A DNA stretch of 64,000 nt. Origin: Haloterrigena turkmenica DSM 5511. GTDB lineage: Archaea > Halobacteriota > Halobacteria > Halobacteriales > Natrialbaceae. Positions within the stretch are counted from its first letter, which is position 1; each line of letters starts with the position of its first letter. The stretch is from the NCBI RefSeq assembly GCF_000025325.1, contig NC_013743.1:2914001-2978000 (forward strand), read 5' to 3'. This document shows positions 8,418 to 63,422 of this stretch, one piece after another. The notes below the pieces were generated by a model. The model was not told the DNA's origin, made no database searches, and saw only the letters and a program-made list of their open reading frames with translations. The position numbers and the translations under genes are program-made.

Positions 8418-9688
8418 ATGGACTACGGCGCACGGTTCCGGCTCTTACCCACCACCAGACAGCGAGAGTTACTGGGCTGGCAACGTAACACCGTGCGCCA
8501 AGTCTACAACCATGCACTCTACCGACTCGACCAACTCCCCTAACAAGACGACTAAACTGTCCGGCAACGCGTCTGGCAAGTCCGCGACGAACTCCCCGAC
8601 TGGAAGCAGAAATGGTCGGAGTGGAGCAAGGTGTATTCCACCGTGCTGCAAGCCGCTGTGGAACGGATCTATCACAGCATCACCGGCCTCGCCCAACTCC
8701 GCAACAACGGACACAAAATCGGGGGGTTGAACTGGAAGAAACCACGAGAATTTCAGAGTTTCACGTCCGCCAACGCGGCTTCGAACTCGACGAAAAGAGT
8801 GGTCGCGATGGCCGTGGACGACTGATTCTCAAGAAGGTGCGTGGTGAAACAATCGACATTCCGATCCGATTGCACCGCGATCTTCCAGACGACGCCGAGG
8901 TCAAGCACGTCTCCGTCAAACAGGAATCCACCGGTACGTGGTACGCCTCGTTCGATGTCGAACAAGAGGAACCCGAGAAACCGGACATTGAGGACATCGA
9001 TCCTGCGGACACAGTAGGCATTGATCTTGGTGTCCTAAACTTCATCTATGACTCGGACGGGCGGTCAGTTGACCGCCTCAACCTGACCGATGACCGTGAA
9101 CAACTCGAACGCGAGCAACGGTCATTGTCGCGCAAGGAGTACGAGTCGAACAACTGGGAGAAGCAACGCCAGCGCGTTGCAGAAGTCCATATGGACATGC
9201 GGAACAAGAAGCGCGACTTCAAACACAAGCTTGCGCGTTTCTACACCTCGGAGTACGACGCCGTCTTCGTTGAAGACCTCAACATCAAAGGGATGCTCGA
9301 GGCTGATGGGAACGCACGGAACAAGGCAGATGTTGGGTGGCGCGACTTCATCCGTGTTCTCAAGCACCACGGTCGGAAGCACGGGTGTCACGTGGTGGAG
9401 GTTGAACCAGCGGGAACGACGAAGGAGTGCAGTCGGTGTGGTGTAGAGACAGAGAAGCCGCTGTGGGTCAGGGAGCATTCGTGCCCGTCGTGTGGTTTGG
9501 AGTTGGATCGGGATTGGAACGCGGCGTTGAACATCTTTTCTCGCGGTCTGGAGGAGCTAGGAGTGGTTCACTCCGAAGAAATGCCTGTGGAGACTGCGAC
9601 CGCTGTGGACACTGTTTCTGTGTCTGCAAGTCGCGTCGTTGAAGCAGGAAGCCCCTGCCTCAAGGAAGCCGCGTCAGCGGCTGAGTAG
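8418..9688 (+). pseudogene. tnpB: RNA-guided endonuclease TnpB, disrupted
   Basis: The frame starts at ATG 8418 (MDYGARFRLLPTTRQRELLG) and is broken by two in-frame TAA codons, at 8541-8543 and 8553-8555. It continues in the same frame through VRDELPDWKQKW to QSFT near 8765, where one missing base shifts it into the frame ending at 9688. The C-terminal RuvC part looks intact: GIDLG (first Asp), VFVEDLN (Glu), DRDWNAALN (last Asp), with a zinc finger CSRCG...CPSCG. The N-terminal wedge/recognition part is lost, so full-length TnpB should not be made, although a C-terminal fragment from an internal start is possible. Confidence 0.88.
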
Positions 9689-59643: not shown

Positions 59644-61596
59644 TTACTCGCCCTCGAATTCGGGTTCGCGGTCCTCGGCGAAGGCCGTCGTGCCCTCGAG
59701 CACGTCGTCGGTGCTGGACAGCAGGCCGAAGCCCTGGCTCTCCATCGTGAGGGCGGCCTCCATGCTCGCGTCCTGGCCTTCGTTCATGACCTTCTTGGCG
59801 ACCTCGAGGCCGATCGGCGGCCCGTTGCGGAGGTCGTCGACGAACTCCGCGACGGTGTCGTCGAAGTCGTCGCGCTCGACCGAGCGGTTGATCAGTCCCC
59901 ACTCCTCGGCGCGGTCGGCGTCGATGTGGTTGCCGCGGAAGACCAGTTCCTTCGCGCGGGTCTCGCCGAGCACGCGGAGGAGCCGTTGGGTGCCGCCGCC
60001 GCCGGGGATCAGCCCGAGGGTGATTTCGGGGGCGCCGAACGCGGAGCGCTCGGTCGCGACGCGCAGATCGCAGGCGAGCGCGAGTTCGAGGCCGGCGCCG
60101 AGACAGAAGCCGTCGATCTTCGCGAGGACGGGACGGGGGAAATCGTTGACCGTCTCGAACGCGGGAGTGACGTCCATCAGGTCCGTCGGCTCGGCGTCGC
60201 TGAATTCGGAGATGTCGGCGCCGGCACTGAACGCGCGGTCGCCCGCGCCTTCGATGGTCGCACACCGAACCTCGTCGGCGTCGATCGACGAGAACAGGTC
60301 GTCGATCTCCGCGAGCAGGTCACCCGAGAGGGCGTTCATCCGCGAGGGGCGGTCGAGTTCCACCTGCAGGACGCCGTCCTCGAGTTCGTAATTCAGGTCG
60401 TGGTAGGGACCGAGTTCGTCGTCGCCGTAGTCGTAGAAGCCCGCGCCAGCGTCCTCGCCGGTCTTCCCCTCCGTGACCAGTTCCTCGAGGTACGGGTGGG
60501 GCTCGAACCGGTCCGAGCCGGTCTCCTCGTAGAGGGTCCCGAGTTTCTCGAGGACCGTATCGAGGCCGAGCTTGTCGGCGCGCCGGCAGATACCCTCGGG
60601 GAAGCCCAGCCCGAGCTGGACGCCGGTGTCGACCTCCTCGGGAGTGGCGACGTCCTCGCCGACGAGGAAGGCGGCGCGGTTGATCATCCGGGCCTCGACG
60701 CGGAGCCAGTCGAAGTCGTCCGCGTCTTCGGGCTCGTAGTCGGCGCCGTCGCCCTCCTCGTAGTCGTAGTAGCCCGTCCCGGTCTTCTGGCCGAGGTCTC
60801 CGGCCTCGACCTTCTCCTCCGTGATCGGCGGAATCGGGCTGCCACCCTCCTTGCGGACGTGGTAGCCGACGTCGATGCCGGTCAGGTCGGCGAGTTCGAA
60901 CGGCCCCATCGGGTAGCCCCGCTCGTGGACCATCGTCGCGTCAGCCTGCCGAATCGTCGCCTCGCCGTTCGAGACCATGAACGCGGGCTCGCCGCCGAAG
61001 GGGCCGACGATGGTGTTGACGACGAAGCCGCGGACGTCCTTACGGACGTAGATCGGCGTCTTGCCGATCGACTCGACCCACTCGTAGCCCGCTTCGGCCG
61101 TCTCGTCGCTGGTGTCCTGCCCGTAGATGACCTCCACGAGGTCCATCTTCACCGGCGGGTTGAAGAAGTGCAGCCCGAGCACGCGTTCGGGCGTGTCGAC
61201 GGCCTCCGCGATATCTGTGATCGGCAGACTCGAGGTGTTCGTCGCCAGCAGGGTGTCCTCGCTGGTATACGCCTCGAGGTCGGAGAAGATGTCGTGTTTC
61301 AGTTCGAGGTCCTCCGGCGCGGCCTCGATGACGAGGTCGGCGTCCGCGACGGCGGCTTCGAGATCCGTCGTCGTGTCGATCCGCTCGAGGACCGCCTCGG
61401 CCGACTCGTCGATCAGCTCCTTCTCCTCGAGTTTCTGCAGACTCCACTCGATGGACTCGTAGCCGTCCTCAACGAACTCGTCTTTGATGTCCCGCATCGT
61501 GACGTCGTAGCCGGCCATCGCGGTCACTTCGGTGATTCCGTGTCCCATGTTCCCCGCGCCCAGCACAGCGACGCGGTCGATGCTGTCGAGTGACAT
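59644..61596 (-). CDS. fadB: 3-hydroxyacyl-CoA dehydrogenase/enoyl-CoA hydratase fusion
   Basis: 650 residues with the dehydrogenase first. Rossmann motif VLGAGNMGHGI (about 10-20), the catalytic LGLHFFNPPVKMDLVEVI (about 135-155) and a C-terminal dehydrogenase domain (about 180-375). The enoyl-CoA hydratase/isomerase part is at about 390-650 (FSAGADISEF; PGGGGTQRLLRVLG). This archaeal order is the reverse of E. coli FadB. It carries out two steps of beta-oxidation, and here may do the PaaF/PaaH steps after ring opening. Promoter TTGC-n3-GCAA repeat upstream. Confidence 0.93.
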   Translation of the reverse strand: MSLDSIDRVAVLGAGNMGHGITEVTAMAGYDVTMRDIKDEFVEDGYESIEWSLQKLEEKELIDESAEAVLERIDTTTDLEAAVADADLVIEAAPEDLELKHDIFSDLEAYTSEDTLLATNTSSLPITDIAEAVDTPERVLGLHFFNPPVKMDLVEVIYGQDTSDETAEAGYEWVESIGKTPIYVRKDVRGFVVNTIVGPFGGEPAFMVSNGEATIRQADATMVHERGYPMGPFELADLTGIDVGYHVRKEGGSPIPPITEEKVEAGDLGQKTGTGYYDYEEGDGADYEPEDADDFDWLRVEARMINRAAFLVGEDVATPEEVDTGVQLGLGFPEGICRRADKLGLDTVLEKLGTLYEETGSDRFEPHPYLEELVTEGKTGEDAGAGFYDYGDDELGPYHDLNYELEDGVLQVELDRPSRMNALSGDLLAEIDDLFSSIDADEVRCATIEGAGDRAFSAGADISEFSDAEPTDLMDVTPAFETVNDFPRPVLAKIDGFCLGAGLELALACDLRVATERSAFGAPEITLGLIPGGGGTQRLLRVLGETRAKELVFRGNHIDADRAEEWGLINRSVERDDFDDTVAEFVDDLRNGPPIGLEVAKKVMNEGQDASMEAALTMESQGFGLLSSTDDVLEGTTAFAEDREPEFEGE

Positions 61597-61637
61597 GGTC
61601 GTCCTGTCGCTCGGAATCGTCTTAATACCACCGACAC

Positions 61638-61648
61638 TTGCTTAGCAA
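61638..61648 (-). promoter_or_regulatory. TTGC-n3-GCAA palindrome upstream of fadB
   Basis: TTGC (61638-61641)-TTA-GCAA (61645-61648) is located about 15-25 nt upstream of a GGTATTAAG TATA-like element (about 61620-61629) on the minus strand. It looks like a small operator for the fatty-acyl operon. Confidence 0.4.
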
Positions 61649-62125
61649 TGTTAACTGCGTTGTCTACGGTTGTAAAGCGCGTTCGTCGATTCCGGTTTTC
61701 GGTGAACTTCGGTAACGTTGACTCGAGTTTTGTTCTGCGAAACGTGACTGCGCGGTACGGTGGTCGAGTGAGTCGGTACCGGTAGACGGCGCTCGGTTCT
61801 CGAGCCTCGAGTTCTGCGACACGCTTCGAAACTAAACCACGCGGACGGACTCCGTCGCACTCCGGACTGCCGAACTCACGTGCGGCGGCGCGCGCTGTCG
61901 TGTGCTCGAATGATAGTGAGAACACATCGACGATATCGTGCGAGGGATGAGCGGGTAAACGCAGTGCGCGAGCGAATCGGCTGGGGAGGGCGTGGCGATT
62001 CCCTGTTGCCAGCGTGTGCAGAACACTCGAATGCCGTCTGCTACGAACCGAATCCGGCGGTTCCTTCCACCTCGCTGTACTCTGGCAACGGGGGCTTCCA
62101 CGTCCTCCCTAGCCGACTTCTGCTC

Positions 62126-62314
62126 GCGGGCCGTGCGCGGCGCGCAGCGCCGCGAACTCGAGGCGGTGAAACCGCCTCGTACGGCCCGCTCGCACGGTTC
62201 GCGGAACCTCCGGTTCCGCGCTAACGCTCACTCACGCTGTTCGTTCGCACATCCCTCGCGATATTCGAACCGCGACTCCGTCGCGGTTCAGCGCGCCAGC
62301 AGCGTTCACTGCTG
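62126..62314. repeat. Cluster of six perfect inverted repeats with trinucleotide loops
   Basis: An outer stem 62126-62134/62181-62189 (9 bp) encloses CGCGGCGC (62136-62143)-GCA-GCGCCGCG (62147-62154) and CGAGGCGGT (62159-62167)-GAA-ACCGCCTCG (62171-62179). After it come CGCGGAACC (62200-62208)-TCC-GGTTCCGCG (62212-62220), GAACCGCGAC (62267-62276)-TCC-GTCGCGGTTC (62280-62289) and CAGCAG (62297-62302)-n6-CTGCTG (62309-62314). Not coding; role unknown. Confidence 0.8.
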
Positions 62315-62360
62315 CGGCTGACCAACTCTCCACTGTAATCCAGCGGGAAGCGATCGCCGA

Positions 62361-63422
62361 TTACAGCGGTTCGTCGCCCTCGAGGATCCGCTTTGCGCGC
62401 GCGGCCAGTGCCGGGACGCGGTCTTCCATCTTCGGGTACAGCGGGTTGTCCGCGTTGCCCTCGAGATGCCGGCGGAAGAACATCTCGCCGAGGCCGGCCA
62501 GTTTATAGACCGCCAACGTCCGGTAGAACCGCTCGTGTTCGAACTCGAGGCCGGTGAGTTCCTCCCAGCGGTCGACGAGTTCGATGCGGGTCGGGTAGCC
62601 CTCGCGTTCCATAAACCGCGTGACCAGTTCCGGAATCTCGGGGGCGGGATCCTTCGGATCGCGCCAGTAGGAGAGCATCCAGCCCAGATCGGCCCGCGGG
62701 TCGCCCAGCGTCGCCATCTCCCAGTCGAAGACGGCGTTGAGTTCCGGCGGCGTGCCGGGGGCGAACATCACGTTATCGAGCTTGTAATCGCCGTGGACCA
62801 GCGAGTGCGGGTGGTCCTCGGGGACGTTTGACTCGAGCCAGTCGCCGACCTCGTAGAGGACGGGCACCTCGCGCTCGTCCTCGGTGACCTCGAACGCCCA
62901 CGAGAGCTGTTTGCCCCAGCGGTCGACCTGCCGTTGGGTGTAGCCCGTGGGACGGCCGAACTCGCCGAGGCCGAGTTCCTCGTAGTCCAGCCGGTGGATC
63001 TTCGCCAGCGTGTCGACGAGTTCCTCGCCGGTCCGCCGGCGGTGGGCGGGGTCGGCGAACCGCTCCGGTTCGTCCTCCCGGAGGACGTCGCCCTCGAGGC
63101 GTTCCATCACGTAGAAGTCGCTGCCGATGACGGCGTGGTCGTCGCAGGCCACCTTCGTCTCGGGGACAGGGACGTCGGTGTCCGTCAGGGCCGACGTCAC
63201 CCGATGCTCCCGGAGAACGTCGTGGGCGGTGTCGGCGGTCTCGCCCGGCGGCGGTCGCCGGATGACCAACTCCTCGCCGCCCCAAGTGACGAACAGCGTC
63301 TCGTTGGAGTGGCCCTCCTGGTGGCGCTCGATCTCGTAGCCGTCGACCTCGCCGAGGTGCTCCTCGAGGTAGGCGACTAGCGCGTCCTCGTCGACCAGCC
63401 GCTCGTAGTACTCGTCGCTCAT
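62361..63422 (-). CDS. Phosphotransferase family protein (ACAD10-like aminoglycoside phosphotransferase fold)
   Basis: 353 residues. Kinase-like fold: N-lobe EGHSNETLFVTWGGEELVIRRPP, catalytic HGDYKLDNVMF (about 209-219) and DFG-like VFDWEMATLGDPRADLGW (about 232-249). Such proteins occur with acyl-CoA dehydrogenases and phosphorylate hydroxy-acyl compounds, so the substrate is probably a 4-hydroxy acid or acyl derivative. Stands near the beta-oxidation fusion gene. The end is just left of a large intergenic region. Confidence 0.87.
   Translation of the reverse strand: MSDEYYERLVDEDALVAYLEEHLGEVDGYEIERHQEGHSNETLFVTWGGEELVIRRPPPGETADTAHDVLREHRVTSALTDTDVPVPETKVACDDHAVIGSDFYVMERLEGDVLREDEPERFADPAHRRRTGEELVDTLAKIHRLDYEELGLGEFGRPTGYTQRQVDRWGKQLSWAFEVTEDEREVPVLYEVGDWLESNVPEDHPHSLVHGDYKLDNVMFAPGTPPELNAVFDWEMATLGDPRADLGWMLSYWRDPKDPAPEIPELVTRFMEREGYPTRIELVDRWEELTGLEFEHERFYRTLAVYKLAGLGEMFFRRHLEGNADNPLYPKMEDRVPALAARAKRILEGDEPL

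Follow-up and report, generated by a model that had tools for sequence, protein, structure and literature searches.

The window analyzed here is a 64-kb stretch of the 3,889,038-bp chromosome of Haloterrigena turkmenica, whose whole genome comprises 5,440,782 bp in 7 contigs; strain 4kT has been described as carrying one chromosome and six plasmids (PMC3035258). The region of interest is a dense cluster of hairpins flanked by two minus-strand genes, one for a dehydrogenase/hydratase and one for an APH-type phosphotransferase (Table 1). The neighboring gene has its closest named relative in H. salina (95%), and the two ORFs that overlap the hairpins gave no Pfam match. In congeners G001-G005, a short ORF (MADDKKGRNKQADDEERQRER...) lies between the phosphotransferase and dehydrogenase genes. 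This ORF is missing from the window (61597-62360), and in its place H. turkmenica has a pair of copies of a dispersed repeat, designated U. For all comparisons, genomes were read as stretches around the matches.

The original prediction, made from the letters of this region, listed four perfect hairpins with 3-nt loops, a 9-bp outer stem, and a last 6-bp stem, and every one of these was present where it had been placed. The perfect hairpins have stems of 8, 9, 9, and 10 bp and loops of GCA, GAA, TCC, and TCC, respectively. Their density also exceeded chance: under a Markov-1 control, 2.7 perfect stems (8 bp or more, 3-nt loop) would be expected in the 64-kb window, which contains 15. Four of these fall within 154 bp, at the array. 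Folding of 62110-62330 as RNA gave -114.7 kcal/mol against -88.1 ± 4.6 for shuffled sequences (z = -5.8; 0 of 200 shuffles as good), and the reverse strand gave z = -4.7. An accumulation of ordinary intrinsic terminators between genes, which had already been judged inadequate, would suit the location at gene 3′ ends. It was rejected as exceedingly improbable given at least four stems within 190 bp that are not followed by T-runs, and given the exact repeat ends, copies inside genes, and empty sites described below.

Table 1. Coordinates of the flanking genes, U copies, and H element in the window
Feature	Position	Strand	Evidence
3-hydroxyacyl-CoA dehydrogenase/enoyl-CoA hydratase gene	59644-61596	-	
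U, left copy, canonical, without H (HP1, box C′, spacer, box B′, HP2, box A′ from right to left)	61878-62020	-	R1 132 bits, E 2e-32
Box A′ (outer end) of left U	61880-61897	-	box scan, 1 mismatch
U, right copy, interrupted by H	62074-62307	+	R1 34.8 bits, E 6e-7; uninterrupted orthologue in L159, L158
Box C′ of right U (CCACGTCCTCCCTAGCCGA)	62098-62116	+	inverted repeat with 61977-61995 of left copy, 89%; alignment consensus
H element, mobile palindromic insert, multibranched	62119-62224	+	R2 115.8 bits, E 8e-18 (62119-62223); 106-bp gap against orthologues; junctions
H outer stem, 9 bp, 5′/3′ sides	62126-62134/62181-62189	+	read from sequence; helix 1, 97% of cells paired; encloses inner hairpins 1 and 2
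H inner hairpin 1 (CGCGGCGC gca GCGCCGCG), 8 bp	62136-62154	+	helix 2; both bases changed in 2 pairs
H inner hairpin 2 (CGAGGCGGT gaa ACCGCCTCG), 9 bp	62159-62179	+	helix 3; both bases changed in 1 pair
H terminal hairpin (CGCGGAACC tcc GGTTCCGCG), 9 bp	62200-62220	+	helix 4; both bases changed in 5 pairs
Box B′ of right U (CGCACATCCCTCGCG)	62246-62260	+	box scan, 2 mismatches
HP2 of right U (GAACCGCGAC tcc GTCGCGGTTC), 10 bp	62267-62289	+	stem shared with the Natrinema and Natronorubrum orthologues
Degenerate box A′ (end) of right U	62290-62307	+	R1 match ends at 62307
Last 6-bp stem (CAGCAG/CTGCTG), overlaps U end	62297-62302/62309-62314	+	read from sequence
APH-type phosphotransferase gene	62361-63422	-	

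The limits of the array had to be redrawn. Together with the outer stem, hairpins one to three make up a single element (H). The fourth hairpin, of 10 bp, is part of the host repeat, which reaches left to 61878 and whose end is overlapped by the last 6-bp stem. The array is two nested repeat families rather than a single designed RNA. Of the roles first considered for it, that of a recombination or repeat element was borne out, the region lying within a repeat family and its core being a mobile element. A "designed" RNA or a chromatin mark found no support: Rfam searches of the window and of ten loci with H at TnpB genes returned no matches, and the array is a chance nesting, with no such array in the orthologues.

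Aligning the copies of the host repeat defined U as a dispersed intergenic unit of ~140 bp that occurs singly or in head-to-head pairs. Its components are, in order, hairpin 1 (GTGGCAAC..GTTGCCAC-like), box C′ (CCCTCCCCARCCGATTCGCTC), a spacer, box B′ (CGCTCATCCCTCGC), a variable hairpin (HP2), and box A′ (CAGCGCGCGCCACCGCAC); the pair in the window is head-to-head and spans 61878-62307. In the search for homologues proposed with the original prediction, the array matched 25 dispersed places in the own genome and had counterparts in 25 of 61 relatives; the sequence left of the array gave 57 matches in the own genome. The covariance model of U (R1) matched in 38 of the 61 relatives and found at least 53 copies in most congeners; U exceeds 50 copies per chromosome in the genus, and many copies occur in other haloarchaeal families too.

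The 17-base core of box C (CGAATCGGYTGGGGAGG) was found at 64 places in the own genome, all chromosomal, with none on the other contigs (1.55 Mb). Under even density this distribution has a probability of 5e-10, a value that ignores shared ancestry and differences in replicon age. All 42 places in G004 were on contig 1 (4.29 of about 4.6 Mb), and those listed for G005 were all on contig 1. The U family of H. turkmenica is thus a chromosomal one, absent from the six plasmids. The HP2 stem is private to each copy and compensated: duplexes of a copy's own arms averaged -15.7 kcal/mol compared with -8.5 for swapped arms, and 0 of 20,000 permutations were as low. Some U units carry additional hairpins in the C′-B′ spacer that share the core of H. 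At one locus (L019, 1936-2141), a single U spacer holds about six consecutive 3-nt-loop hairpins with conserved linkers, which suggests that H was inserted there repeatedly or that the array grew.

H itself spans 106 bp at this locus and supplies the outer stem and three of the four perfect hairpins. Orthologous U units were found about 65 bp past the APH stop in Natrinema salsiterrestre (L159) and Natronorubrum texcoconense (L158, same contig as G009). In both, the HP2 stem (GAACCGCGAC/GTCGCGGTTC) is identical, the 106 bp are absent, and the joint bears no duplication; the gap is placed unambiguously against Natrinema, and in Natronorubrum another small deletion adjoins it. By parsimony, H was probably inserted here, deletion in two genera being less likely. 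Further along the same intergenic region, G001, G002, G004, and G005 carry a U in the opposite orientation, which holds H at the same internal site in G005 and is without H in G001 and G004.

The core of H consists of TCTGCTCACGGG, one simple or two-armed stem, CCCGTTCGCATGG, a terminal hairpin, and GCTA. The multi-branched fold suspected at the outset was recovered exactly when RNAalifold was run on 17 H elements: 98% of cells in the alignment were paired and 10 of 33 pairs were changed on both sides. The covariation score exceeded all 500 shuffles, and no slide came near it either, in a comparison that is favored by deriving the structure from the alignment under test and in which related sequences can beat shuffles. 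Contrary to the outcome that would have refuted the original prediction, homologues with compensatory changes exist and the stems are related across species; the fold of H is kept by such changes.

If the repeat were transcribed into a functional structured RNA, or into a 3′ UTR regulator, that is conserved for its fold, a strong fold with compensatory changes would be expected as well. The surroundings of U are in keeping with such a role: of 38 U loci with genes callable on both sides, 19 were convergent, 5 divergent, and none inside a gene, compared with 10 convergent among 52 adjacent gene pairs in the window under the same gene-call heuristic, which is based on acidic composition. This explanation is nevertheless quite improbable, as the window and the ten TnpB loci with H gave no Rfam match, and H is missing from orthologous loci and present inside protein genes and at transposon ends. 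Compensation is also expected if mobility requires the fold, or if palindromes are corrected by template switching.

The covariance model of H (R2) gave 44 matches in the own genome and matched in 32 of 61 genomes. Copies range from 55 to 106 bp, the short ones being 55-60 bp, and differ in their inner hairpins, so that what looks like one element is a family; identity to relatives is 75-95%. Across several unrelated settings, H has fixed ends (TCTG...GCTA) and no target duplication. One genome (G039) contains 12 H and no U matches, which means that H is not merely a part of U. Homologous recombination (gene conversion) between the boxes, with H as an old internal variant of U, would by itself account for tandem H copies, which do occur, and for three H copies on two replicons of Halopiger (G027) that share ~30 bp of left-flanking and 17 bp of right-flanking U sequence. 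As the sole explanation it is unlikely, since it leaves unexplained both the H copies with the same ends in genes and at TnpB ends and the 12 copies in G039. The shared flanks in Halopiger do suggest that units recombine with one another, a second route by which some H copies may have spread.

The TnpB genes provide a second setting in which empty and filled sites can be compared. The empty right end (L031) reads AAAGCCCCA|CCCTCAAC, the right flank starting with CCCTCAA, and the filled one (L245, L274) reads AAAGCCCCA[TCTG...GCTA]CCCTCAAG, with a right flank again beginning with CCCTCAA. A near-identical filled end was found in L259 and two further genomes; H has entered TnpB right ends at one site in several genomes. 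This right-end region of TnpB makes an omega RNA in Halobacterium (PMC12558985). Multibranched H elements also occur 5′ of two TnpB genes in two families (L031 and L038). In the own genome, a TnpB gene (L115, 269-1614) adjoins a 38-residue remnant of a Y1 transposase and represents a decayed IS605-type element; within the window, 8849-9559 gave a weak TnpB-like match (27% identity, 1.5e-9).

Repeated association with TnpB genes raises the question of whether H belongs to the terminal-only derivatives (PATEs) of IS200/IS605, moved by the Y1 transposase TnpA. Like such derivatives, H has palindromes near both ends, makes no target duplication, and is too short for a transposase, and PATEs and 52-bp terminal-only forms have been described in Haloquadratum (PMC3119063). 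We consider this origin unlikely, however, because H interrupts the right end of TnpB and is not that end itself, as the existence of an empty version shows, and because several H-rich genomes are without Y1. Of 30 Y1 loci, 1 had H nearby, in what looks like an insertion of the TnpB type; the other 29 are without H. As a helper for H, a Y1 transposase was rejected, copy numbers being uncorrelated (rho 0.13 for H and 0.03 for U). A MITE was likewise rejected, H being without terminal inverted repeats and without target duplication.

H was also found within protein-coding genes. The CrtI-type protein of G030 (L041) contains 33 extra residues. In more than 25 other genomes, including H. turkmenica, the CrtI matches abut, running up to residue 133-134 and resuming at 166-167 (residues 133 and 167 in the H. 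turkmenica alignment). The CrtI of G027 has an insert that begins similarly but is otherwise different and shorter. TrpC of G146 aligned to solved structures in two pieces with about 37 residues between them, and the same two-piece pattern was seen for MenB of G118 and an AMP-binding enzyme of G023. Similar stretches occur in two GNAT proteins, a zinc-ribbon protein, an unidentified cysteine-rich protein, and a SufD protein. R2 matched seven in-gene copies, each over 99 bp, matched the AMP-binding enzyme over 54 bp only, and did not match SufD. Five of the seven in-gene cases were found with the peptide itself as query, and their shared frame is therefore no independent evidence. A SufBD-domain gene from another haloarchaeal family (L045, 813-2069) contains an in-frame palindrome-encoded stretch (EARSASDASGETASD).

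Taken together, the array is very probably a composite of two transposase-free families, in which a head-to-head U pair hosts H, in the spacer of its right-hand unit, as a separate, non-autonomous mobile palindrome. As to how H moves, we propose that it would do so as single-stranded DNA folded into hairpins, with an enzyme supplied in trans cutting at the feet of the terminal hairpins. The chemistry of IS200/IS605 Y1 transposases suits movement of a folded single strand. Our search found no mobilizing enzyme, the own genome having just the 38-residue Y1 remnant. H might additionally spread among U units by recombination between the conserved boxes on both sides. Within genes, copies of 99 bp with an open frame would survive, the loop of about 33 residues that they add being hydrophilic and harmless. 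A bolder reading, which we advance only tentatively and think doubtful, is that H forms a class of its own among mobile palindromes of archaea, that an activity acting in trans on its hairpins moves it, and that selection keeps one of its frames open, which would let it enter essential protein genes as a benign loop. It would then be an archaeal counterpart of the Rickettsia palindromic elements.

Discussion of in-frame palindromes in conserved enzymes has so far centered on Rickettsia and certain bacterial REPs. A haloarchaeal family with empty sites in relatives makes both the movement of such elements and the tolerance of proteins toward them testable in culturable archaea. H also accounts for the inserts seen at TnpB right ends, and its model gives annotators a means of recognizing hairpin clusters that gene finders and RNA databases now miss.

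In the open-access literature on haloarchaeal intergenic palindromes and on the motif letters, a scope that makes for weak evidence of novelty, related elements appeared only in a genome comparison of Haloquadratum walsbyi, which described SMR-A and PATEs (PMC3119063). SMR-A resembles H in its length of about 110 bp and its lack of a transposase and of target duplication. SMR-A targets near-terminal regions of IS605-type elements, related repeats, and PATEs (PMC3119063); H may share this habit, having entered TnpB right ends at one site in several genomes as well as U, a putative PATE-like unit. In contrast to H, SMR-A has prominent terminal inverted repeats; the ends of H (TCTGCTC and CGCGCTA) are not complementary, and its hairpins are separate and internal. 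SMR-A copies are more than 95% identical within a type, whereas H copies are 75-95% identical to relatives and vary in length and inner hairpins, and H, unlike SMR-A, is also found in protein genes. PATEs share with H the absence of terminal inverted repeats, palindromes near the termini, no target duplication, and a size too short for a transposase (PMC3119063). Their palindromes, however, resemble IS605 ends, to which those of H could not be tied (at none of the 30 Y1 loci could H be shown to form the ends). Lacking the terminal repeats of SMR-A and having palindromes untied to IS605 ends, H is filed outside both families.

By analogy, U may be likened to a REP/BIME- or PATE-like palindromic unit. 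With REP/BIME (PMC3733652) it shares many copies, occurrence singly or in opposite pairs, a location at convergent or tandem gene ends, and compensated stems; it differs in its length of 140 bp compared with 20-40 bp and in that its own genome contains no RAYT, only the 38-residue remnant. Bacterial REPs have been reported inside genes as well (PMC3733652). Compared with GTAG-type REPs (20-40 bp, GTAG/CGTC tag), H is longer, and its reverse strand begins with TAGC and has no fixed GTAG. The Rickettsia palindromic elements (PMC10969869, PMC3733652) are like H in being palindromes of about 100-150 bp that lie in frame in unrelated genes and encode a similar peptide. This likeness is one of description; the two belong to different domains of life, and most of the H copies found are intergenic. 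H fits the full definition of none of these families and is best set beside the small transposase-free palindromic elements.
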